From positions 1 through 22,243 of IMG/VR virus record IMGVR_UViG_3300023237_001281: 22,243 nucleotides of DNA. One strand, given 5' to 3'. Origin of the DNA: a virus. Shown in pieces: positions 9,740 through 22,243 of the stretch; the first letter of the stretch is position 1, and each line of letters begins with the position of its first letter. The notes below the pieces were generated by a model that saw nothing but the letters and a program-made list of their open reading frames with translations, searched no databases and was not told the DNA's origin. A program made the translations under genes and the position numbers.

Positions 9740-9953
9740 TCTGATGACGGTGGCGCGGGCGGTTCTCAGTTTGTTGGCGGTGGTGGTGATGGCGGTGGCG
9801 GTCTCTGGCTGTGAGGCGACGTTCCCGATCGGGGCGGAGGCGGCGTATGGGGAGGCTTATGTGGGGTATCGGCTCCCGGCGGTTCGCACTTTTTCGACTT
9901 ATAATATTTTTGGTTCGGAGGAACTGTACGGGAGGACGCTTGGGGACAAATGA
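9726..9953 (+). CDS. Small lipoprotein, outer spanin candidate, 75 aa
   Basis: Starts at ATG 9726 behind AGAGGG. A signal peptide with a hydrophobic core (LSLLAVVVMAVAV) ends in a lipobox, V26-S27-G28-C29, so the mature lipoprotein is 47 residues. Residue 30 is Glu rather than Asp, which fits transport to the outer membrane under the known +2 rule. The mature part is short, with Y and G (AYGEAYVGYRLPAV). Position between the one-pass membrane protein and the phospholipase, each overlapping, makes it a lysis protein, most likely an outer spanin. Lack of a Pro-rich stretch is atypical for Rz1. The lipoprotein call is firm; the spanin call is not. Confidence 0.65.
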   Translation: MERIDLMTVARAVLSLLAVVVMAVAVSGCEATFPIGAEAAYGEAYVGYRLPAVRTFSTYNIFGSEELYGRTLGDK

Positions 9954-10843
9954 AACGGATCCTCTCTATTTCTGGTGGCGGGATGCGCGGCGTGATGGCG
10001 GCTCGCTGGATGGTGGAGCTGGAACGTTGGTTCGGTGCTCCGGTGCGGGATTGTTTTGATCTTGTCGAGGGGACTTCTACGGGTGCAATCCTCGCGGGGA
10101 TGGCGGTCTCTGAGCGACGGCCTTCGGCGCTGGAGATGTTGCGGTTTTATTATGAATCGGGGCCGAAGATTTTCCGCAAGGGGTGGCTGGATTTTGGGGT
10201 GTTTGCGCCCCGGTATGATAACCGGGGGCTGATTGCGGAGCTGCGGGCCTGTATCGGCTCGGAATCGATGGGCGATGTGCAGGGCCGCGTGGTCATGCCG
10301 ACGGTGGACGCGGTGCGGAATGAGGCGGTCTTCGCTAAGAGCTGGGAGCCATGGTGGAAGAATTTTCCGCTTTGGGCGGCGGCGGCGGCTTCGTCTTCGG
10401 CGCAGACGTATTTCCCGGAGTTCGAACTGGCTTATGCCGGGGAGAAGTATCGGTATCTGGATGGGGGCAATCATTCGAATAATCCGGCGGCCTCGGCTTT
10501 GTATGAGGGCTGGCGCCTGTGGCCGGATGAGGAGCTGCTGGTGGTGTCGATCGGCACGGGTAAGCAGGTTTGCCCTGATCCGCTGCCTGGCCGGGCCGGA
10601 ATGCTGGGCTGGGCTCCGCTGGTGTTCGGCGCGATGTCGGAGTGTCAGGATGATGTGGCCCGGTATTTCTGCCGCAATGCTCCGGGGGTTCGCTTCGTGG
10701 AGCTGGATGTGCAGTTGGCTCAATTCCCGGGGATGGATGATGCGCGGTCGGATTCGCTGGATGGATTGGTGCAGCTGACGGAGGCGGAGATCAAGGCGCA
10801 TGGCGCGAGGCTCAAGGAGGAGATTTTAGATGGAAAAGTTTGA
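9950..10843 (+). CDS. Patatin-like phospholipase
   Basis: 297 residues containing all hallmarks of the patatin family. These are the oxyanion loop G9-G10-G11-M-R13-G14; the nucleophile elbow G41-T-S43-T-G45; a SSSAQTYFPEF segment corresponding to the family's A-[ST]-A-P-x-Y-F-x-P block; and the catalytic aspartate motif D171-G172-G173. Patatins hydrolyse acyl chains of phospholipids using a Ser-Asp dyad. No signal peptide is present, so it acts from the cytoplasm unless exported. It overlaps the lipoprotein gene by ATGA and the endolysin gene by 14 bases, a tight block that implies co-translation and a role at lysis. Related bacterial patatins serve in CBASS as CapV effectors, but no cyclase is encoded here. 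Function in lysis is inferred. Confidence 0.88.
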   Translation: MKRILSISGGGMRGVMAARWMVELERWFGAPVRDCFDLVEGTSTGAILAGMAVSERRPSALEMLRFYYESGPKIFRKGWLDFGVFAPRYDNRGLIAELRACIGSESMGDVQGRVVMPTVDAVRNEAVFAKSWEPWWKNFPLWAAAAASSSAQTYFPEFELAYAGEKYRYLDGGNHSNNPAASALYEGWRLWPDEELLVVSIGTGKQVCPDPLPGRAGMLGWAPLVFGAMSECQDDVARYFCRNAPGVRFVELDVQLAQFPGMDDARSDSLDGLVQLTEAEIKAHGARLKEEILDGKV

Positions 10844-11309
10844 TGATCGATCGGAGGGCAATTTGCTCACGTTGCATCCGGAGGCGGCGCGGCAGGCGCG
10901 GGTTTTTCTGGGAGCTGCGAAGCGGCTGATGGCTGTGCATGGGATTTGTGTGCGGATCATCTCGGGGACTCGATCGTATCAGGAGCAGGATGCGCTTTAC
11001 GCTCAGGGCCGGAAGGGCGTGCCAGGGCGACGGGTGACGAATGCCCGCGGCGGGCAGTCGAATCATAATTTTGGGATCGCTTGGGATATCGGGCTTTTTG
11101 AGGGGCCGCGGTATCTGGCGGAGTCCGCTCGCTATAAGGAGCTGGGGGCGCTGGGGCGCTCGCTGGATCTGGAATGGGGCGGGGATTGGAAGTCGATCAA
11201 GGATGAACCGCATTTCCAGGTGCGCCCGGATTGGGCGCGGGGGATGACGGAACGGGATATGCTGGCGGCTCTGCGGATCAGGGTGGCCTCGGGAAAGGGG
11301 ATTTTCTAA
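10830..11309 (+). CDS. Endolysin, M15 family peptidase (VanY/L-Ala-D-Glu type)
   Basis: 159 residues. A strong AAGGAGGAG lies about 9 bases before ATG 10830, and the gene overlaps the phospholipase by 14 bases. The M15 zinc-peptidase motifs are complete: S77-N-H79-N-F-G-I-A-W-D86 (the S-x-H-x-x-G-x-A-x-D box) and D-E126-P-H128, giving zinc ligands H79, D86 and H128. Upstream GTRSYQEQDALYAQGR is the usual arginine-tyrosine region of phage M15 endolysins. No signal peptide or cell-wall binding domain is visible, so it depends on a holin-like partner to reach peptidoglycan and fits a Gram-negative host. Carboxypeptidase or endopeptidase specificity cannot be read from the sequence. Confidence 0.87.
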   Translation: MEKFDDRSEGNLLTLHPEAARQARVFLGAAKRLMAVHGICVRIISGTRSYQEQDALYAQGRKGVPGRRVTNARGGQSNHNFGIAWDIGLFEGPRYLAESARYKELGALGRSLDLEWGGDWKSIKDEPHFQVRPDWARGMTERDMLAALRIRVASGKGIF

Positions 11310-11313
11310 TTTT

Positions 11314-13689
11314 ATGGTGATGGATCTTGATAGTGAAATCTCGCGGGATGGGGACGCCGGATGGTCGGGGTTTCGCTCGCGGCCTGATGCGCTGACGCTG
11401 CCTGAAGGGGTGGCCTCGTATGCGCAGAATATGCGTTTCGTGCGCGGGCGGGCGGAGGTGCGCAAGGGGGCAAAGCGGCTGGCGCAGGATGTGAACGCCG
11501 GATCGGTGCCGCTGACTCTGCCTTTTGTGCTGGGTGATGTGCTGGCGCTGCTGGCGGGCCTGGTGCTGGATTTTGATCTGGAGTCGCCGGTGTCGGTGAC
11601 GAGCTTGGTGCGGCTGAGCACGACGGTGACGGCTACGGTGACGGCGCATGGCCTCTCGACGGGCGATACGGTGAATATCGCGGGGGCGACTGAGCCGGAA
11701 TATAATGGGGATTTCTCGGTGACGGTGACGGGCGTGAATGCTTTCGAATATGAGGTGGTCGGATTCCCGGCTTCTCCTGCCGGTGGCACCATCTCGATGA
11801 TCGTGGGCCCGCTGCTGGGGGCTGGGATCACTCGGGTGGGCACTACGGTGACTGTGGTGACGGCGACGGCGCATGGCCTCGCGACGGGTCAACAGGTGGC
11901 GATCGAGGGGGCGACTCAGACGGAGTATAATGGGGATTTCTCGGTGACGGTGACGGGCGTGAATGCGTTCACTTTCCAGGTGTCTGGAACTCCGACGACT
12001 CCGGCCACGGGGACGATCGTGGTGACGTGGGGCCCGGGGGTGCGGAATAGTTATAGCGGCGGGATTTTTGCGGCAGGGGTGTTTTCTTCTCCGAAGTCTT
12101 CGGTGACTCTGCATGGTCGGGAGTATGTGGTGCTGGTGGGTTCGGACTCGGCGTATCTCTGGCGGGAGGGTGAGACGCTGGTGACGCGTCCTTTCCCTAG
12201 TGGCCAGATCGTGGAGGTGGATGATGAGGTGACGGTGATTCAAGCGTTTGATCGGCTGTTTGTGCTGCGGGCGCGGGATCTGCTGGGGGAATGGGCGCCG
12301 CAGGTGGCGGTGACGCTGACTCGGGCGGGCACGACGGCGACGGCCACGTTTACTCTGGCGCATGGCTTCACGACTTCGGACCGGGTGGCGGTGGAGGGCG
12401 CGGAGCAAGCGGGTTGGCTGGCGGAATTCGATGTGGCCACGGTGGCGGATGCGAACACGATCACTTTCGTGGTCGGGAATGAGCCGGCGACTCCGGCCAC
12501 GGGATCGGTCACGGTGCGAAAGGTGCGGCCGCCGATGGTCTGGAATGGCGAGGGGTCGGAATTCACGGTGGTGGCGGGGGGAAGTCACCCGCTGGGGGCA
12601 TCTTACTCGAAGCTGCGGAGCACGGGGATCGCTGCGTATTTTAATAATCAGTTGGTGTTCGTACCGACGCCGGCGCAGGACACGGTGCTGGTGTCTGATG
12701 TGCTGGATTATGAAACGTATGACCCGATCTTGAAGACCTGGCGCGCGAATGCGGGCAGCGCAGACCGGATCATGGCGCTGCATCCTTTTGCGGAGAGGGA
12801 TGTGCTGGTGTTCATGCGGAACTCGATCTATCGGGCGCATGTGACGACGACTCTGGACGGCACGGCAATGAGCACGACGGATTCATTCATCGAGCTGCTG
12901 ACGACGGAGGTGGGTTGCCGGGCCAGACGCTCGGTGGTGACGGCGGGACCGTATATTTATTTCCTCGCAGATCAGGGGGTTTACCGCATGGATCTGAATT
13001 ACTCGGACTATAAGGTGCGCGGGATGCAGGTGCCGCTCTCGGACGGGATCACGGATCTGCTGGATGATGTCAATGATGCGGCCATGCACCGCTCGAGCGC
13101 GGCGTGGTTTGATAATCGCTATTGGCTGGCGGTGCCGGTGGGGGACTCGGAGTTGCCAAATTGTATTCTCGTCTGGTCGGCTCTGACGAATGAATGGGAA
13201 TCTAAGGATATTTACCCGACGGGGATTTCGCATCTTCTGGTGTCGGACTATGGCGGGAAGCGGCGGCTTTTTGCGGCGTCGCTCTCGGGGACTTTGTTTG
13301 TGCTGGATGAGATGGACCGAGGGGATGATAGCAATAACGGCTCTGAGGTGGTGCCGATCGATGCGGAGCTGATGACGCGGGCGTATTGGCTCAAGGATAT
13401 GGGACCGAAGCGGTGGCTCCGAAGCACGGTGAATGTGCGCCTGGAGGGTGCAAGCGCGGTGGGGCTGGATGCGGTGCTGGCGGAACCGGATGTGGTGGCC
13501 TCGCTGGCTGGTCTCGAGAATGAAGGCGCGGAGATGGAGGACTATGCCTGGAAGATGCCGATCCGCCGGCCGGGGCACAACCTCAAGCTGAGATTTCGGA
13601 ATTCGGTGCCGGGGCGCTGGACGCTCCGAAACTGTGCGGTGGAGGTGGCAACGGCCCGGCCGTCGATGCGGGGGCGGACGGTTGCATGA
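11314..13689 (+). CDS. Nozzle-like tail protein with three beta-sandwich repeats
   Basis: 791 residues, close to T7 gp12 (nozzle, 794). The N-terminus (GFRSRPDALTLPEGVASYAQNMRFVRGRAEVRKG) is the A-x-N-x-R/x-x-G-x-x-x-x-R-x-G entry typical of nozzle and stabilisation proteins, given here with breaks: LPEGVASYAQNMRF, RAEVRKGAKR. Three similar modules follow at residues about 95-162, 169-240 and 330-405 (pattern T-V-T-A-x-x-T-A-H-G-L-x-T-G, YNGDFSVTV, PATGT). The second half shows beta-propeller-like strands (NQLVFVPT, DVLVFMRNSIYRAHV, GPYIYFLADQGVYRM, NRYWLAVPVG, TNEWESKDIYP). It would form the tail channel below the adaptor. The start lacks a close SD (AAAGGGG 13 bases away); ATG 11320 is an alternative. 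Confidence 0.68.
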   Translation: MVMDLDSEISRDGDAGWSGFRSRPDALTLPEGVASYAQNMRFVRGRAEVRKGAKRLAQDVNAGSVPLTLPFVLGDVLALLAGLVLDFDLESPVSVTSLVRLSTTVTATVTAHGLSTGDTVNIAGATEPEYNGDFSVTVTGVNAFEYEVVGFPASPAGGTISMIVGPLLGAGITRVGTTVTVVTATAHGLATGQQVAIEGATQTEYNGDFSVTVTGVNAFTFQVSGTPTTPATGTIVVTWGPGVRNSYSGGIFAAGVFSSPKSSVTLHGREYVVLVGSDSAYLWREGETLVTRPFPSGQIVEVDDEVTVIQAFDRLFVLRARDLLGEWAPQVAVTLTRAGTTATATFTLAHGFTTSDRVAVEGAEQAGWLAEFDVATVADANTITFVVGNEPATPATGSVTVRKVRPPMVWNGEGSEFTVVAGGSHPLGASYSKLRSTGIAAYFNNQLVFVPTPAQDTVLVSDVLDYETYDPILKTWRANAGSADRIMALHPFAERDVLVFMRNSIYRAHVTTTLDGTAMSTTDSFIELLTTEVGCRARRSVVTAGPYIYFLADQGVYRMDLNYSDYKVRGMQVPLSDGITDLLDDVNDAAMHRSSAAWFDNRYWLAVPVGDSELPNCILVWSALTNEWESKDIYPTGISHLLVSDYGGKRRLFAASLSGTLFVLDEMDRGDDSNNGSEVVPIDAELMTRAYWLKDMGPKRWLRSTVNVRLEGASAVGLDAVLAEPDVVASLAGLENEGAEMEDYAWKMPIRRPGHNLKLRFRNSVPGRWTLRNCAVEVATARPSMRGRTVA
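11701..11966 (+). repeat. 41-bp identical direct repeat within the nozzle-like gene
   Basis: The 41 bases at 11701-11741 and 11926-11966 are identical (start TATAATGGGG, end GTGAATGC), spaced by 225 bases or 75 codons. They encode YNGDFSVTVTGVNA in modules 1 and 2. The third module (from about 12301) is diverged. Exact DNA identity in a copy pair points to a recent in-frame duplication or gene conversion. Confidence 0.85.
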
Positions 13690-13740: not shown

Positions 13741-14538
13741 ATGAGTGATTTAACGACAGGATATACTTGGGCGAATGGGTCAACGGTAACGGCGGCCCGG
13801 CTGAATACGGCGATCGAGGACGCGACGCTGGCACCAGCGGCGATCAGCGGGAAGACGGCGAAAACTACGGTGGTGGACGCGGACGAACTTCTGATCTGGG
13901 ACTCGGCGACGTCGGCTCTGAAACGAATGACGCGTGAAAATCTGCTGGGGCTGCTAACGGCGGGGACGGTGCATGGCCAGACGGCGAAAACGAGCCTGGT
14001 GGATGCGGATGAGTTTCTGATCTGGGACTCGGCGGCGACGGCGCTGAAGCGAGTGACGAAGGCGAATCTGCTGACGGCGGTGCAACCGGCAGGCTCGGTG
14101 CTGCAAGTCAAAAATTCGCAATCTCAAACTCAGGTATCGGGATCGACGGATATTCCGCTTGATAATACGATCCCTCAGAACTCGGAGGGGACCGAAATTT
14201 TAACTGTGACTATCACGCCTGCGGCGGATTCAAACACTGTGCTAATTCAGGCGAATTTCATGGTTTCCGCAAATGCCGGGAAAACGATGGTGTTGGCGTT
14301 GTTCCGTGATTCAGGATCGGATGCCATCGCGGTGACCTCTCGATACGCGACAGGAAATGCGTCGGTGGTTGAAAATCTCACTCTTGCGTTTATGGATTCG
14401 CCGTCAACGACGGATCCGATTACATACAAAATTCGATTTGGAGTAAATGGCGCCACTTATTATGTTAATGACGGATCGACTGCCTATTTTGGCAGTAAAA
14501 GAGGATCTTCTTTGGTTGCACAAGAAATCAAGGGATAA
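13741..14538 (+). CDS. Tail fibre protein with tandem 42-residue repeats and a jelly-roll-like tip
   Basis: 265 residues; GGGGGGAATGACTG precedes ATG 13741. The N-terminal segment (DLTTGYTWANGSTVTAARLN) is a common phage fibre anchor. Two tandem 42-residue units follow, residues about 36-77 and 78-119, each with K/Q-T-A-K-T, V-D-A-D-E, L-I-W-D-S-A and an L-K-R helix; they would build the shaft. The C-terminal half (from about residue 125) is a beta-rich tip (IPQNSEGTEILTVTITPAAD, ANFMVSANAGKTMVLALFRD, YYVNDGSTAYFGSKRGSSL) of the type seen in trimeric receptor-binding heads. The tip DNA is more AT-rich than the shaft, as in the lectin-like gene. A start followed by a second fibre suggests two host-recognition proteins. 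Confidence 0.75.
   Translation: MSDLTTGYTWANGSTVTAARLNTAIEDATLAPAAISGKTAKTTVVDADELLIWDSATSALKRMTRENLLGLLTAGTVHGQTAKTSLVDADEFLIWDSAATALKRVTKANLLTAVQPAGSVLQVKNSQSQTQVSGSTDIPLDNTIPQNSEGTEILTVTITPAADSNTVLIQANFMVSANAGKTMVLALFRDSGSDAIAVTSRYATGNASVVENLTLAFMDSPSTTDPITYKIRFGVNGATYYVNDGSTAYFGSKRGSSLVAQEIKG
13846..14097 (+). repeat. Two tandem 126-bp units in the fibre shaft
   Basis: Units 13846-13971 and 13972-14097 align over 126 bases with many identical words, such as ACGGCGAAAAC, CTGATCTGGGACTCGGCG and AATCTGCTG. They encode the two 42-residue shaft repeats. Number of units is a plausible way to vary fibre length. Confidence 0.75.
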
Positions 14539-14543
14539 ATATC

Positions 14544-15500
14544 ATGGCAACTCAACCGGCACCTCGGGACATGGGCGCAGAGATGCGGGATCTGATCCCG
14601 TATCTGGGCCAACTGGCTTCTATGCAGCAAAACGCCTATGTGAAGGGGCAACAGAAGCTGACGGAATATCAGATGGGCCGACTGCCCACGGATGTGCCGA
14701 TGATGGCGCAACTGCAACGGACGGAGACGGGGAATGACCGGACGGCGGCGATTGATTTTCTGAGGACCCAGGGGCCGGATGCCCGGGCGGCGGCAGCGAC
14801 TTCCAATCCTGAGCTGTATTCCCGCCTTGCGGAAATGAATGCACTGGCCTCGAATACGGGGCTGTATGATGAACTGCAAGGGCAGGCATCGAGCGATCTG
14901 GCTCTGGGCCGGATGCTGAGCCCGGAGGAGGAACGGGACGCCACGCAGGCGGCCCGGGTGGGCGCGTCGCAGCGAGGGATGGCCACGGGACCAAGCACGC
15001 TGGCAGCGGAGATCCTCAACCGCAATCGAATGGGGACGGCGCGTGAGGCGGATCGAAGGAATTTTGCGGTGACCGTAGAGGGTCTTCGGGGCCAGCAACT
15101 TGGCTACCTGGGGAGCGCAGTGTCTGCAAATGATTCGACCGATCCGGCGATGAAGATGTTGGGGATGCCTTCGAATAATCAGGTGCAGGGGACGCAGAGC
15201 TTTATCCAAGGGGTGCGGACTCCGGATCCTAGCGGCATCATGGGACAGGGATTGAGCTATGGCGGGGATCTCGCCAACACGAATAATAACGCGGCGTGGA
15301 GCCAGTATTACAATCAACAAAACATGGGGCTGGCGCAGCAGTATGGCGGCCTGGGCCAGGGGGGCGGAAGTAATCCCTGGGGCGGTGCGCTCTCGGGCGC
15401 GGCTTCTGGTGCGGCGGCGGGAACGGCGATCATGCCGGGCTGGGGCACCGCGATCGGCGGCGTGGCCGGCGGCCTCGCGGGGTATCTGGGAAGCTCTTAG
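14544..15500 (+). CDS. Internal virion (ejection) protein with C-terminal glycine zipper
   Basis: 318 residues, mostly helical and Gln/Met/Ala-rich (RDMGAEMRDLIPYLGQLASM, YVKGQQKLTEYQMGRLPTD). The last 39 residues are a glycine zipper (GGALSGAASGAAAGTAIMPG, then IGGVAGGLAGYLGSS), a membrane-active or pore-type segment seen in phage ejection proteins. A Q/N/G-rich stretch precedes it. Position after the tail genes and before two more helical proteins fits the podovirus order of three internal virion proteins that leave the head with the DNA to span the cell envelope. AAGGGAT lies about 8 bases before the ATG. I do not recognise an exact family. Confidence 0.65.
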   Translation: MATQPAPRDMGAEMRDLIPYLGQLASMQQNAYVKGQQKLTEYQMGRLPTDVPMMAQLQRTETGNDRTAAIDFLRTQGPDARAAAATSNPELYSRLAEMNALASNTGLYDELQGQASSDLALGRMLSPEEERDATQAARVGASQRGMATGPSTLAAEILNRNRMGTAREADRRNFAVTVEGLRGQQLGYLGSAVSANDSTDPAMKMLGMPSNNQVQGTQSFIQGVRTPDPSGIMGQGLSYGGDLANTNNNAAWSQYYNQQNMGLAQQYGGLGQGGGSNPWGGALSGAASGAAAGTAIMPGWGTAIGGVAGGLAGYLGSS

Positions 15501-15546: not shown

Positions 15547-16350
15547 ATGGCATTTCAACCGGTATTTAATCAGGCAGCCCCGTCGATGATCTTCGACGGT
15601 CTGCAAATGGAGGCCCGTATGGGCCAGAGGAATAAGGAGATCAATCAGCAGCAGCTGATGCAGGGGATGCAGGCTGTGGGCCAAGTGGTAGGCCAGGCTG
15701 GGCAGATGTATCAGGAGAATGTCGCGAAGCAGCGGAATAATCTGGGGAAGCTGGAGGCTTATGGCGCTCTGGGGATGCCTCCTGATCAGCTGGATGCGCT
15801 CTCGAAGATCAAGGATCCGGATAAGCTGGCGGGGGCGCTCGCGGTGGCGGATGAGGCGATAAAGCTTCAGCAACGGCAGGGGCTGATTGATCATGAGTAT
15901 GAGTTGCGGGCCGGACTGGCCGCGGCTCAACAGGCGCAAGATCGCACGGGCCAGGTGCTGAATGTGCCGGATCCGAATAATCCGGGGCAGTCTCTGCCGT
16001 TCATCTTTGGCAGTGATAATAATATTGTGCCGCTCAGGCAGCCGAAGGCGGATGGAACGGCTCCGAAGACGATCAATTCGGATTCGGGGATCTTGCAGTG
16101 GGATGCGGGTTCAGGTGGCTATGTGCCGTTGGTTGATCCGATAACGGGAAATGCGGTGCAGCCGGTGAAGAAGGTGCCCTTCAACCCTTACTCTCAGTTT
16201 GATGATGCCGCGCCGACAGAACCGGATTCCCGGAGTGATGGCTCTGGGCGCGGCGGGCCGGTCGGGATCGCGGTGGGCCAGACGGCCACGAATCCAAGAA
16301 CGGGCAAGGTGATGCGCTGGGATGGCTCGGCGTGGCGGGTGGTGCCATGA
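15547..16350 (+). CDS. Helical internal virion protein, 267 aa
   Basis: The ATG at 15547 has AAAGGGAT upstream. The first half is strongly helical and Gln/Met-rich (MGQRNKEINQQQLMQGMQAV, GQAGQMYQENVAKQRNNLGK), then KIKDPDKLAGALAVADEAIKLQ. The second half is more extended, with N and P, and ends in an N-P-x-T-G-K-V-x-x-W-D-G-x-x-W-x-x-V motif, common at the end of phage virion proteins. No family name is recognised. It lies between the glycine-zipper protein and the giant protein and overlaps the latter by 4 bases (ATGA). Likely the second ejection protein. Confidence 0.6.
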   Translation: MAFQPVFNQAAPSMIFDGLQMEARMGQRNKEINQQQLMQGMQAVGQVVGQAGQMYQENVAKQRNNLGKLEAYGALGMPPDQLDALSKIKDPDKLAGALAVADEAIKLQQRQGLIDHEYELRAGLAAAQQAQDRTGQVLNVPDPNNPGQSLPFIFGSDNNIVPLRQPKADGTAPKTINSDSGILQWDAGSGGYVPLVDPITGNAVQPVKKVPFNPYSQFDDAAPTEPDSRSDGSGRGGPVGIAVGQTATNPRTGKVMRWDGSAWRVVP

Positions 16351-19300
16351 ATGTCCCTGAGGGGTTTGTGCTGGATGCGCCGCTTCCTCGCGCGGGCGGG
16401 GTGGGTGCTGGGCTGCCGGATGGTTTTGTGCTGAATGCGGCTCCGCGTCTTGATGAGGTGCCGAAAGGGTTTGTGACGGTGGGGGATCGGGCTTCGCTGA
16501 ATGCCTTGCTGGAACCGGATCTGCCAGAGGTGCGGACTTTGCCAGCGGATCCGGTGAATCTGACGGCATCGACAATCCAAGCGGTAAATGATCAATCAAT
16601 CCCCCCTGCGGAGCCGGTAGTGCGGCGGGCGATGGCGGTGTCTCCGGAGGGTGGGGTGGATCTGGAGGGGCAGGATGCTCTGGCTCTGAATGTGCCGCAG
16701 GATGCGAGGGCTTTGATCCCAGAGGGCTTTGTGTTGGATGCTCCGCCGGATGCGAGATCTTTTATCCCGGAAGGTTTCGAGCTGGATCCTTCGGAGCGGC
16801 CGGAGGGGTTCTTTGATGCAGTGAAGCGGGCGGCTCAACGGGGCTGGATGTCGGGCGAGACGGCGGTGGAGATGTCGCACGGGGTGATGGATGCTGAAGG
16901 GATCGCGAGGCGTCAACGACGTATCGCGGCTCTGCGAGGGACTGAGGATTTTGAGAAGACTTGGGATGATGGGGTGGAAGCCGGGGAGAGTTTTGATGCG
17001 TTTGTGCGGGATCCGATCGGGAATCTGGCGCAGTTGACGGCGGAAAGCCTGGGGACGATGGCCCGGACGCAGTTGGATACGATTGGCAAGGTGCCGGAAC
17101 GTGCGGCGCAGGGCATGGTGGGAGCTGCCACGGCGGGCATGGTGGGCGGTGGACCTCCCGGAGCGGCGGCGATGGTGGTGCCGGGTGCGCTGGTTGGTGG
17201 AAGTGCCGGGTTCGCGGAGAGCGCAATGCTGGCTTCTCATGCGGCGGAGTATTCAGGGGCGTTTCTGGATGCGCTCTCGGAATCCGGGGTGGACATCACG
17301 AATGCGACGGCGATGAAGAATGCGCTGCTGGACTCGAATACGGTGGCGGAGATCCGGGCTTCTGCGGAACGTAAGGCGGTGCCGATCGGGATCGTGGATG
17401 GTCTGATGACAGCAATCGGGGGGCGGCTCTTTGCGTCTCCAGCGAAGAAGGTGATGGGCAAGGCTGTGCAATGGGCTGGCGAGCTGGGTGTGCAGGCTGT
17501 GGGCGGTATGGCTGGCGAGGTGGCCGGGCAGGTGAATCAGAAGGGGAAGGTCACTTCAGTAAAGTCGGTGCTGGCGGAAGGGGTCGGCGAGATCGGCGGC
17601 AGTGTGGCCTCGGTGGCCGTGGGGCGGATCCGCCTGCCGGATCGTGCTGGGAAGGTGGCCGTGGAAGGTGGCTCGAAGACAATGGTGGTCGGGGGCTCTG
17701 AGGTGGCGATGAAGCCTGCCGCAAAGGCCGGCACCACGTCTGAGACGTTGGGGGGTCCGGCGGCGGCAGGTTCCAGGGAGAATGTATCTCAGGAGGCTAA
17801 TAATGTCAATCCGGAGGAGGCGTATATGCGTCCTGAGGATCGGACGCAGCGGGAGTCTGCGGCGGAGGGATCTTCGAAATCAACGAATCCGGAGGAGGCT
17901 CTTTCTCCAGACGCGAAGACGCAACCGCGAGCGATCGAATGGCTGAAGCCGGAGACGAAGGGGAATCCTTCGCTGCGGGGGATCCGGAATTTTCTGAAGA
18001 GGGCGCTGGATGTGCCGATTCGCCAAGGAATGCGGGTCTCTAAGGGGGCTCAGTCGGCGTTGGGGGTGTATCGAATCCGCCCGGAAACGATCCGGATGCG
18101 GGCGCTGAATGATGTGCCGACGCTGATGCATGAGGTGGGGCATTATTTGCATCACATGATTTTCCCGGAGGGAGAGAATCGGGGGAAGGCTCAGAGTTTC
18201 GCAGGGGTGTATGATGGGGAGTTGATGCCGCTGGGTGCGGTGACTTCGACGCCGGCGTATTCTCCGCAGATGGTGCGGCTGGAGGGGGTGGCGGAATGGT
18301 TCCGGATCTGGGTGGCGAACCCGGCGGCCGCGCGGGTGGCGGCGCCGAATTTCACGCAGCATTTTGAGACGACGGTGGCGACGGAGTATCCGCAGATGGC
18401 TCGGATTCTGGGGACACTCCAGGAGCGGGTGCGGCAGTATATGGATCAACCGACGAAGGCGAAGGCGATGGGGATGATCGCCTGGGAGCCGGAGCAGAAG
18501 CGGGGGAACTTCTCGCAGTGGCTGAAGGATCAATATACGGCGTGGTTCCATGAGTTGGCCCCGATTGAGCGGGCGATGGATAAGCTGGTGGAGTTCGGCC
18601 TGCCGAAGGATCGGGCGCAGGTGGTGGTGAATCTGGTTAATAATTACAAGGGCGGCTGGAAGTCGAAGGCGGATTATGATCTGGAGTTTGCTCAGACTGA
18701 TCTGCATGGAAATGTGGTGGGGCCTTCGATGAAGTCGATTCTCGCGCAGGTGGATGATCAGAAGGAATTTGCCACCTATGCGGCGCTGAGGCGTGCGCTG
18801 GAGAAGTCGCGGCAGGGCGTGCAGACGGGTTTCGAGGAGGTGATGGGGGCAAAGGATTTCTGGAGCATGATGAAGGATTGGGAGGGGAGGTTCGAGCCAG
18901 CGCGGCGGTTGCTGGTGGCCTACACTGAGAATCAGATGCGGATGCTGGAGCAGGCGGGGCTGATCTCTGCGGACCAGGTGAAGGCGATGCGGGATGCGAA
19001 TAAGGATTATGTGCCTTTCTACCGTGTGCATGACTCGGTGACGGGTGCGGGACGGAAGGGTGGCAAGGGGTATGTGAATGCTTCCTCCGGGGTGATGCGG
19101 ATGAAGGGGAGTGATCTGGAGATCATGAATCCGATCGAATCAGTGGTGAAGAATACGATGTTGTTTCGCGATCTGGCGGAGCGGAATCGGGCTGGGGCGG
19201 CGTTTGTGAAGGCTGTGCGTGAGACGCAGGGCGGTGGCCGCGTGGGCGAGGTGGTGCTTCAGCCGATGAAGGCTCAGAATGTCTCGGACGCTGAGGTGAG

Positions 19301-21101
19301 GGCGAAGCTGAGGGAGTCGGGGCTGGTGCTGCCACCCGGAGCGGCTGCGGATCTGGGGTTCGCGATCTTTCGGGCGGTGCGTGGAGCGAATGCGAAGGAG
19401 GGGACTTTCGAGGTCATGGTGGACGGGAAGCCGCAGGTGTTTCAGGTGGAGGATCGGGAACTGCTGAGGGCGCTCTCGATGATGGATTCGCTGGATGCGG
19501 AGATTTTTAATCGGATGCCTTTTCTGAAGGTGATGCGGGGGTTTACGTCGGTGTTGCGGGCAGGCGCGACGTTGACGCCGGAGTTTCTGATTCGGAATCC
19601 CTTCCGGGATCAGGTGGTGGCGGGTGTTTACTCGAAGCATGGGTATGTTCCCTTTGTGGATGGGTTCCGCGGGATCTTCTCGATGCTGAAGAAGGATGAT
19701 CTGTATAAGGAATGGCTCCGGGCCGGTGGGAAGTATGGCGGGCTCTATAATGTGGAGGTGAATGACACGCTGGGGGTGATGCGGGCTGTGGGCGCTCAGA
19801 ACCGGTCGGCGGTGGAGCGGGCGGCGGCGCTGCTGGATCCGCGGAATGTGCTGCGGGCGCTGGCGGCGGCGGGAGAGGTGATGGAGAGCGGGACAAGGAT
19901 CAGTGAGTACCGCCGGGCGCGTGAGCAGGGATTGGATGCGGGTGCTGCGGCGATGGCTTCGAAGGATGTGACGCTGAATTTCTCGAGGGCCGGCTATCGC
20001 GGGGCAGTCACGAATAAGATGGTGGCCTTCTTCAATGCGGCGCTCCAGGACATGGATAAGATGGGTCGGACGTTCCGGGAGCGGCCCGTGGCAGCGTCGG
20101 CAAAGGCTCTAACTTACATCACGGTGCCTTCAATGTTGGTGTGGTGGCTGGGGAAGGATGATCCGGAGATCGATGATTTGCCTGAGTGGCGGAAGGCGTT
20201 TTTCTGGAACGTGAATTTGCGTGAGTGGGCGGGGACAGATTTCATCCTGACGGTGCCGAAGCCGTTTCTGATGGGTGCGCTCTTCGGGACGAGCGCGGAG
20301 AAGGGGCTGGATCTAGTGTATAAAAAGGATCCGAATGCGGTGCATAAGTGGTTCCAGGCAGTGATGCAGAATACGCTATTCCGGGGGGATGCTGGGATCG
20401 CAACGGCGGTTAAGCCGCTGCTGGAGAATCTGACGAATTATTCATTTTTCCGGGATGCTCCTCTGGAGAATCAGGCGCAACGGGTACTCTCTCCGGAGAT
20501 GCGGTTTAACCCGAGCACGAGTCTGACGGCGAGGTTTGCGGGGGAGAAATTTGGAGCGTCTCCGCTGATGATCGACAATGCAGTGCGTGGTTATCTTGGG
20601 GGTCTGAGCCGATATGGGACGGATGCGATTGATTATTTCTTGGTGAAATCAAATCTGATGGAGGTGCCTCCTCAGCCTCCGAAGGATCCGCGTGAATTGC
20701 CTTTCGTGAAGGCGTTGATGGTGCCCAAGGATGCCGGGAGTGAATCGGTGGCAAGGTTTTACCGGGCGATGGAACTGGCCGAGAACCGGATCCGGGACTT
20801 CAAGGTGCTGGGGGATCGGATGGAGACTCCGAAACAGAAGGGGTTCTGGATGAAGAATCGGAATGAGCTGATGTATTATGGCACGGTGATGGGAGATGTG
20901 CCGATGATGACGCATCTCCGCCGGACGCAGGGCCAGCTCTCGGAGATCAATAAGGCGATGATGTATGTGCAAAATACTCGCAAGATGAGCCCGGAGAGTA
21001 AGCGGGACCGTCTGGATCTGCTGGAGCGGCAACGGATGGAGATCGCAAAGAGGGCATTCGAGCGCGGCTTTCACCCGAAGGACCGGGCGAGGGCGTTTTA
21101 G
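16347..21101 (+). CDS. Giant polyvalent virion protein: zincin-like metallopeptidase and LPD38-like region
   Basis: 1584 residues. ATG 16347 overlaps the previous stop (ATGA) and is preferred to GTG 16332. In order: six P-E/D/K-G-F repeats (residues about 3-160); helices; two Gly/Ala-rich hydrophobic stretches (about 250-295 and 345-430); a disordered S/E/T linker (about 445-525); a zincin motif H595-E-V-G-H599-Y-L-H-H with a likely third ligand E650 in GVAEWF; a long helical middle; an LPD38-like region (about 1060-1370) with TPEFLIRNPFRDQ and WWLGKDDPEIDDLPEWRKAF; and a basic helical tail. Polyvalent proteins of phages and conjugative elements enter the host with the DNA. This one is therefore probably ejected, possibly with an active protease. 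Substrate unknown. Confidence 0.8.
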   Translation: MNVPEGFVLDAPLPRAGGVGAGLPDGFVLNAAPRLDEVPKGFVTVGDRASLNALLEPDLPEVRTLPADPVNLTASTIQAVNDQSIPPAEPVVRRAMAVSPEGGVDLEGQDALALNVPQDARALIPEGFVLDAPPDARSFIPEGFELDPSERPEGFFDAVKRAAQRGWMSGETAVEMSHGVMDAEGIARRQRRIAALRGTEDFEKTWDDGVEAGESFDAFVRDPIGNLAQLTAESLGTMARTQLDTIGKVPERAAQGMVGAATAGMVGGGPPGAAAMVVPGALVGGSAGFAESAMLASHAAEYSGAFLDALSESGVDITNATAMKNALLDSNTVAEIRASAERKAVPIGIVDGLMTAIGGRLFASPAKKVMGKAVQWAGELGVQAVGGMAGEVAGQVNQKGKVTSVKSVLAEGVGEIGGSVASVAVGRIRLPDRAGKVAVEGGSKTMVVGGSEVAMKPAAKAGTTSETLGGPAAAGSRENVSQEANNVNPEEAYMRPEDRTQRESAAEGSSKSTNPEEALSPDAKTQPRAIEWLKPETKGNPSLRGIRNFLKRALDVPIRQGMRVSKGAQSALGVYRIRPETIRMRALNDVPTLMHEVGHYLHHMIFPEGENRGKAQSFAGVYDGELMPLGAVTSTPAYSPQMVRLEGVAEWFRIWVANPAAARVAAPNFTQHFETTVATEYPQMARILGTLQERVRQYMDQPTKAKAMGMIAWEPEQKRGNFSQWLKDQYTAWFHELAPIERAMDKLVEFGLPKDRAQVVVNLVNNYKGGWKSKADYDLEFAQTDLHGNVVGPSMKSILAQVDDQKEFATYAALRRALEKSRQGVQTGFEEVMGAKDFWSMMKDWEGRFEPARRLLVAYTENQMRMLEQAGLISADQVKAMRDANKDYVPFYRVHDSVTGAGRKGGKGYVNASSGVMRMKGSDLEIMNPIESVVKNTMLFRDLAERNRAGAAFVKAVRETQGGGRVGEVVLQPMKAQNVSDAEVRAKLRESGLVLPPGAAADLGFAIFRAVRGANAKEGTFEVMVDGKPQVFQVEDRELLRALSMMDSLDAEIFNRMPFLKVMRGFTSVLRAGATLTPEFLIRNPFRDQVVAGVYSKHGYVPFVDGFRGIFSMLKKDDLYKEWLRAGGKYGGLYNVEVNDTLGVMRAVGAQNRSAVERAAALLDPRNVLRALAAAGEVMESGTRISEYRRAREQGLDAGAAAMASKDVTLNFSRAGYRGAVTNKMVAFFNAALQDMDKMGRTFRERPVAASAKALTYITVPSMLVWWLGKDDPEIDDLPEWRKAFFWNVNLREWAGTDFILTVPKPFLMGALFGTSAEKGLDLVYKKDPNAVHKWFQAVMQNTLFRGDAGIATAVKPLLENLTNYSFFRDAPLENQAQRVLSPEMRFNPSTSLTARFAGEKFGASPLMIDNAVRGYLGGLSRYGTDAIDYFLVKSNLMEVPPQPPKDPRELPFVKALMVPKDAGSESVARFYRAMELAENRIRDFKVLGDRMETPKQKGFWMKNRNELMYYGTVMGDVPMMTHLRRTQGQLSEINKAMMYVQNTRKMSPESKRDRLDLLERQRMEIAKRAFERGFHPKDRARAF
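16353..16820 (+). repeat. Six PEGF-type short protein repeats at the N-terminus of the giant protein
   Basis: VPEGFVLDA (from 16353), LPDGFVLNA (16413), VPKGFVTV (16458), IPEGFVLDA (16716), IPEGFELDP (16764) and RPEGFFDAV (16798). The consensus is [VIL]-P-[EDK]-G-F-x-[LV]-[DN]. Spacing varies, so these are short linear motifs rather than a folded repeat. They may be docking peptides for another virion protein. Confidence 0.8.
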
Positions 21102-22243
21102 AGGGCCTGCACGTCCCGGAGCTTCAGGTCGTCGAAGTAGTGGTCCCAGGCAGTTTTGATATCGCGGTGGCGGAGCAGCTTGGCGGCGGTCTCGATGCCG
21201 TGGATTCGCGCCATCTCGCTTCCCCACTGCTTTCGTAGCTCGTAGGCGGCTTTTGTCCGGTCGGGTAGGTAAGGACGAACGAAGGTGTTCACTTCGCGTT
21301 TGGAGCCCTCGTATCGGTCGGTGGGGGTTCCGCAGAGGACGAAACCCTCAGCGCCATTTTTGGCTGGGCCAAATTCGGCCACCAGGGACTCGTAGAGTTC
21401 ATGGGCTACGGGGACACTGCCGGCGGAGGCTTTCGGCTTCCAGTAGTCGCGGGCAATCAAGGCGAGCCAGATCTTGCCATCCCGGATTTCAAACCATTCC
21501 CAGCGAAGATTTTGGCATTCGTCATTCCGCAGGCCGCACCTCCGCATGATCCAATAGGTGGCCCAAGCGTTTCGGAGTTGATTCGCTTTGTCTGGCTTGG
21601 CTTCGGTCTTGGCGGCGGTGAGGAGGGCGCCGACTTTCTCGGCCATTTTCGCCAGGATGTCTTCGGGGATGCGGCGGAAACGCTTGTCGGTGGAATCTTT
21701 CAGGAAGGAGACGCCAAGGAATGAGGTGAGATCCGGGAGCTTGAGATCGCGGTAGTGCTCCTGGGCGCGTGAGCTGAAGAGGCTTTTGGCCATCCGCATG
21801 TGGGTATTTGTGGAAGTGGCCTGGCGTGCTCCGCCGGTCTGATCCCGGAAGGCCAACATGGTGTCAGCGGTTAGGACGGAGGCGGAGAGCTGGAGAACGG
21901 CAGCGCGGCTACACCTCTGAGCCTCGGAAATGACGGTGACAAAGCTGGCGATGACGTTCTTCTTTGATTTGACCTGGGTAGAAGCGTCATATCGCTCGAT
22001 GATGGTCTCCAGGCGGACGAATTCGCTTCGAAGGCGCGGAGTCACCCCAAAGAGACCGAGGAGGGAATCATCGCGCATCTTGTTGGCAATGGATTGAGCG
22101 GTTGGCCGAGATGGGGAGCCCGTGGACCGGTTGACCTGCACGGTGCGAACGTGGGATGTGATCGGATCCTGAGTTTTCATCCGGAAATTCGCGTAGAAAA
22201 CCGACTTGCCATCGGGGATGTAGATATTTACGTTCTTATTCAT
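21098..22243 (-). CDS. int: Tyrosine recombinase (phage integrase)
   Basis: 381 residues read from ATG 22243 on the - strand; the start lies at the window edge, so a longer N-terminus is possible. An N-terminal arm-like region and SAM-like core-binding domain (about 60-165) precede the catalytic domain. It holds box I R239 (GLRNDECQNLRW), a likely K269/K271 in the beta hairpin, box II Y334-E-L-R337 (Tyr where most have His), H359 in LLRHRDIKT, and the nucleophile Y369 in DHYFDD. It joins phage and bacterial attachment sites. The catalytic Arg pair, His and Tyr are intact, so it is probably active. It is convergent with the giant gene, overlapping by 4 bases, with no terminator between. The attP site was not found. 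Confidence 0.85.
   Translation of the reverse strand: MNKNVNIYIPDGKSVFYANFRMKTQDPITSHVRTVQVNRSTGSPSRPTAQSIANKMRDDSLLGLFGVTPRLRSEFVRLETIIERYDASTQVKSKKNVIASFVTVISEAQRCSRAAVLQLSASVLTADTMLAFRDQTGGARQATSTNTHMRMAKSLFSSRAQEHYRDLKLPDLTSFLGVSFLKDSTDKRFRRIPEDILAKMAEKVGALLTAAKTEAKPDKANQLRNAWATYWIMRRCGLRNDECQNLRWEWFEIRDGKIWLALIARDYWKPKASAGSVPVAHELYESLVAEFGPAKNGAEGFVLCGTPTDRYEGSKREVNTFVRPYLPDRTKAAYELRKQWGSEMARIHGIETAAKLLRHRDIKTAWDHYFDDLKLRDVQAL

Follow-up and report, generated by a model that had tools for sequence, protein, structure and literature searches.

Zincin domains and the LPD38 domain were already described in phage polyvalent proteins in 2017 (PMC5512222), and that description left open whether the peptidases in ejected phage proteins cut anything. 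The virion polymerase of phage N4 (N4 vRNAP) is an ejected giant protein in which a HExxH domain, C1, is followed by a helical body, C2, of a new fold (PMC12633501). In gluzincins, HExxH is accompanied by a second motif, (E,H)xx(A,F,T,S,G), and the Glu of this second motif is a metal ligand (ArdC structure paper, PMC7213743). In PPEP-3, the catalytic residue is Y190 and the ligand is E197 (PMC12828418). Furthermore, purified virions of phage JC1 contain gp69, which is an LPD38 protein (PMC9144972). Here, we compared with these systems a giant gene in a virus record of 22,243 bases (the window, that is, the whole stretch of DNA analysed), the late region of which is podovirus-like.

Results

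The giant gene and its surroundings

The giant gene can start at ATG 16347, giving 1584 residues, or at the in-frame GTG 16332, giving 1589 residues; the longer product is referred to as P0001, and its numbering is used throughout. Numbers counted from the ATG, as in an earlier sequence-only reading of this DNA, are lower by five. Since the ATG overlaps the stop codon of the upstream gene (ATGA), the 1584-residue length and the numbering of that reading are reasonable. When P0001 was searched against Pfam, LPD38 (PF18857) was matched at 3.6e-30 (105.9 bits, cutoff 27) and nothing else was significant. By this match, P0001 is a phage polyvalent protein, in agreement with the sequence-only reading, which had pointed to zincin domains in the polyvalent proteins of phages and conjugative elements. 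The coordinates of the features are collected in Table 1.

Table 1 Features of the window discussed in the text (residue numbers are those of P0001).
Feature	Position	Strand	Basis
Putative portal gene	765-2846		Homologous ORF at the same place in relatives; name from size and position only
SU10-type major capsid protein gene	5074-6075		
Upstream virion genes	11314-13689, 13741-14538, 14544-15500, 15547-16350	+	blastp; PHROG virion/tail matches
Putative giant polyvalent/internal virion protein gene	16347-21101	+	Open frame; ATGA overlap with upstream gene; LPD38 match
Degenerate PEGFVLDAP-type repeats, N-terminal, at residues 9, 29, 130 and 146 (region 9-153)	16356-16790	+	Regex scan
Low-complexity linker, residues 454-550, candidate self-cleavage segment	17691-17981	+	Order-promoting residue content; cleavage presumed
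Zincin (gluzincin-type) core domain, residues 545-689	17964-18398	+	AlphaFold2; VIA-align; profile search
HEVGH, residues 600-604: predicted zinc ligands H600 and H604, predicted general base E601	18129-18143	+	Sequence; conservation
EGVAEWF: probable ligand E651 (codon 18282-18284), probable second-shell E655 (codon 18294-18296)	18282-18302	+	ExxA rule; conservation; N4-type NEFMAW
Constant C-terminal body, residues 700-1589, including LPD38 at 1278-1459	18429-21098	+	Pfam; homologues with and without zincin; model

Matches to the C-terminal two thirds of P0001 were found in phages of Vibrio, Thalassomonas, Shewanella, Pelagibacter and Bacillus, and several of the matched proteins are annotated next to genes for tail or internal virion proteins. 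L001, the nearest relative found, showed 56% identity from residue 492 to the end; upstream of residue 492, only a short segment immediately preceding the zincin was matched. The body was modelled with a pLDDT of 84.8 and a pTM of 0.84, and the comparison of this model with solved chains gave no convincing relative, none being above noise level. From the genomic context and the virion location of JC1 gp69, we infer that P0001 is probably carried in the particle and delivered into the bacterium. The N-terminal PEGFVLDAP repeats may serve in packaging or docking; they were rejected as a family-wide signal because they were absent in that form from 80 relatives.

The first three of the four upstream virion genes had syntenic homologues upstream of the giant genes of relatives, as detected by blastp. 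The first of them (11314-13689, + strand) codes for a virion structural protein, in which internal repeats similar to the E1_FCCH domain (PF16190, sub-threshold) occur and three stretches match PHROG 9998. Within the late region, we also observed a gene for a patatin-like phospholipase (9950-10843, + strand; PF01734, 1.9e-19), an odd neighbour for virion and lysis genes. It shares 14 bases with the next gene (10830-11309, + strand), the product of which is an M15/VanY-type D-Ala-D-Ala carboxypeptidase (PF13539, 1.1e-13) and probably the endolysin. On the opposite strand, a tyrosine recombinase/integrase gene (21098-22243; PF00589, 1.7e-8) runs past the end of the window; accordingly, the phage is probably temperate.

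Motif and fold of the zincin domain

HEVGH was found at the position given by the sequence-only reading, and GVAEWF (residues 652-657), the Glu of which that reading numbered 650, ended at 18302 as it had stated. Subsequently, a structure prediction was examined, and it was judged on the fold and on the order of the helices. The AlphaFold2 model, built from 69 sequences, had a mean pLDDT of 87.7 and a pTM of 0.80 and showed a helix, three strands, the HExxH helix and the Glu helix in the order of a textbook zincin core (in model numbering: helix 24-35; strands 39-41, 54-57 and 62-65; HExxH helix 71-86; Glu helix 121-138). The succession of the HExxH helix and the Glu helix was that of solved gluzincins, in line with the gluzincin-style site proposed by the earlier reading.

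When the model was aligned with solved structures by VIA-align, the catalytic domain of lethal factor was matched with a Z of 9.4 (139 residues, 4.0 A), followed by PPEP-1 (7.2), PprI (5.6) and ArdC (4.9). In a profile search of PDB sequences, lethal factor again came first (4.7e-4), PPEP-1 was matched at 5.6e-3, and the alignment spanned the motif region. Foldseek against the PDB placed lethal-factor entries in the first 15 positions, all with E above 0.001, and so gave by itself no match under that value; the fold assignment is based on VIA-align, the profiles and the order of the elements. Taken together, as far as identity as a zincin is concerned, the domain is almost certainly a genuine zinc peptidase domain of the gluzincin type, with the motif as its active site.

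It could be argued that HExxH arose by chance in a helical protein and forms no metal site, as no Pfam or NCBIfam zincin family exceeded its cutoff on P0001; for MPTase-PolyVal (PF18818), no match to P0001 was obtained at E 1, and one of 69 relatives was matched at 0.02. However, the chance expectation for HExxH in a protein of this composition is only about 0.008, and the conservation, the fold and the profile matches likewise make this explanation extremely improbable.

The probable zinc-binding glutamate

The Glu helix carries two Glu residues, E651 and E655, that are separated by a single helical turn and are invariant in the 75 aligned sequences. E651-G-V-A654 obeys the ExxA rule, whereas E655-W-F-R658 does not. 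In most of the N4-type virion polymerases examined, the corresponding segment reads NEFMAW or similar, in which the first Glu is kept and position i+4 carries no acid. In the set collected independently of the motif, E651 was present in 32/33 and E655 in 31/33 (replaced by Gln or Asp), a difference that is small when taken alone. On the basis of the ExxA rule and these relatives, the third zinc ligand is very probably E651 (646 when counted from the ATG), and E655 probably belongs to the second shell. Hence, the complete gluzincin-style site proposed in the sequence-only reading was supported by fold and motif as regards its type, but its E650, that is E655, is a less likely third ligand than the neighbouring E651.

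Two relatives of 1775 aa each, L119 and L131, are 88% identical and differ at this point: L131 has AKEGFAEF and L119 has AKKGFAEF, with Lys in place of the ligand Glu. L119 is possibly a natural inactive copy.

Conservation and distribution of the zincin

In the first search, IMG/VR was searched with a profile of six sequences, and 80 of the 178 relatives found were kept. G578, H600, E601, H604, E651, G652, A654 and E655 were identical in 75/75 aligned sequences, a figure that is biased because this search used patterns on the motif itself. For the second search, the patterns were taken from the downstream body alone (closer alignment set A4). Among the 80 viral proteins that this search gave, 33 had the zincin, always at the same junction and with HExxH intact in 33/33; no zincin was seen in the other 47, some of them being truncated at a contig end. 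In the 33 carriers, the domain lay behind a variable N-terminal region and ended about 15-18 residues ahead of the body. On a tree of 73 body rows, its presence required 4 changes, compared with 24 in shuffles.

In the relatives without the zincin, a degenerate form was looked for in Pelagibacter HTVC034P, Bacillus Pascal and ct8d5349 and rejected, as the zincin part gave no profile match there. A separate zincin gene near the giant genes of such relatives was rejected as well; in the stretches that had been fetched, forward ORFs of 80 codons or more contained no HExxH.

Judged from these alignments and the tree, the zincin is inherited with the body, down to about 30% identity, and proteins have it together with its motif or lack it altogether. 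The all-or-none retention of HExxH and the 4 changes on the tree argue for catalysis under selection.

Possible role of the zincin

We infer that the domain is catalytic and that it most likely cuts close to its own position. P0001 is probably an internal virion protein of the podovirus type (ejection, polyvalent); the zincin is an optional but conserved cassette in it, with the variable N-terminal region on one side and the constant body, which contains LPD38, on the other. In the proposed mechanism, H600, H604 and E651 would bind the metal, E601 would activate water and E655 would give support from the second shell. The peptidase would act in cis, or between copies, on the flexible linker just upstream (about residues 454-550), and the cut, made while the particle matures or once the protein has entered the cell, would separate the N-terminal part from the body. 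Self-processing at the adjoining linker is, in our estimation, the single most likely role, and we regard the chances for and against it as about equal.

The linker was the only stretch of P0001 with 40-aa windows containing less than 13% order-promoting residues, and at the same position the content of these residues was below the protein's own average in 96% of the relatives. The body-only relatives also had a stretch of somewhat lower order ahead of the body; hence, such a linker is no peculiarity of the zincin carriers and proves little alone. The fixed end of the zincin before the body, in combination with the low-order stretch directly upstream, was counted in favour of self-processing. 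Release of domains by polyvalent-protein peptidases was proposed by Iyer et al., and DdrB of P1 is processed before packaging (PMC5512222). Against this, N4 vRNAP shares the layout, HExxH domain included, and is packaged uncut, and ArdC and TraC1 are transferred at full length (PMC5512222). Moreover, the metal-ligand mutant E229A of ArdC is still functional in conjugation (PMC7213743), and more than half of the body-bearing relatives are without a zincin (47/80).

The ArdC mutant and the unprocessed N4 vRNAP, together with the Lys at the third ligand of L119, would also suit a metal-binding structural or interaction domain, the peptidase activity of which is unused or residual. This explanation is unlikely, since the strict retention of E601 and both His residues in the 33/33 copies collected independently of the motif is hard to explain without catalysis.

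An active peptidase could instead be directed, after delivery, against a protein of the host or another protein of the phage, for example one in defence or regulation. The closest folds belong to peptidases that are secreted or injected and act on foreign substrates, an effector role for such domains was also proposed (PMC5512222), and the zincin is retained and lost by clade, all of which would be consistent with such a target. However, the constant place of the zincin next to the body fits processing at least equally well, and the closest folds include self-unrelated functions, a common fold demonstrating no function. We therefore consider a target of this kind rather unlikely, although somewhat more probable than the structural role, and self-processing is retained as the preferred role. 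As one defined linker and one set of ligands can be mutated, self-processing is directly testable.

Discussion

The zincin of P0001 is evolutionarily maintained and of an already known kind, and the interest in it is accordingly modest. This interest is raised by the natural comparison that the family offers, which is a clean one: the same C-terminal body occurs in related phages with the zincin intact or with none. What is new here is evidence independent of the motif that the site matters, namely the intact HExxH in 33/33 copies and a presence that follows descent.

The arrangement of P0001 is like that of N4 vRNAP in that a HExxH domain with a third-ligand ExxA is directly followed by a large helical body, and unlike it in that P0001 has no RNA polymerase. 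Profile comparison by hhalign gave weak matches between C1 of N4 vRNAP (L090, about 2203-2234) and the P0001 zincin (P 0.054, 32 columns) and, collinear with it, between the end of C2 (about 3330-3447) and the P0001 body (P 0.16). With hmmsearch, the similarity to N4 vRNAP was sub-threshold, and the N4 structure was absent among the fold matches listed for the body model. The weak hhalign and sub-threshold hmmsearch results do not establish homology of the P0001 zincin and body to C1 and C2. A broader and doubtful idea is that the LPD38 ejection proteins of podoviruses process themselves by means of a conserved cassette, lethal-factor-like and all-or-none in its occurrence, which would cut the variable cargo at the N-terminus off a constant body for delivery, and that C1-C2 of N4 vRNAP is built on the same two-part module. 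If true, the cassette and the shared module would represent a general phage protein-delivery unit.

The best structural and profile matches were to the M34 family (the catalytic domain of anthrax lethal factor, PPEP-1), which, like P0001, has HExxH and a Glu on a later helix. P0001 differs from M34 by its phage virion context. Furthermore, the catalytic Tyr of M34 at position -7 from the ligand Glu has no conserved counterpart: residue 644 of P0001 is Ser, and the position of the adjacent Y643 is Tyr in 14/75. Without the conserved -7 Tyr, the P0001 zincin is not classed as M34 despite the similar fold.

ArdC of plasmid R388 is likewise a mobile-element protein with a gluzincin domain in which the Glu follows the ExxA rule, and it was among the VIA-align matches given above. 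In contrast to P0001, it is a small protein of a conjugative plasmid and has an N-terminal ssDNA-binding domain.

Finally, the MPTase domains of polyvalent proteins (Iyer et al. 2017, PMC5512222) were compared. One widespread MPTase clade has a His ending strand 2, where P0001 has Y580 (His in 6/75), and an Asp three residues past HExxH, where P0001 has H607 (Asp in 31/75, Glu in 22/75); these His and Asp features belong to that clade and not to the whole family. As in the MPTase domains, the zincin core of P0001 combines a HExxH helix with a Glu helix and lies within a large multidomain LPD38 phage protein in a late-gene neighbourhood, with capsid and virion genes upstream. In the general features that were tested, the P0001 zincin agrees with the zincin-like MPTase domains known from polyvalent proteins.
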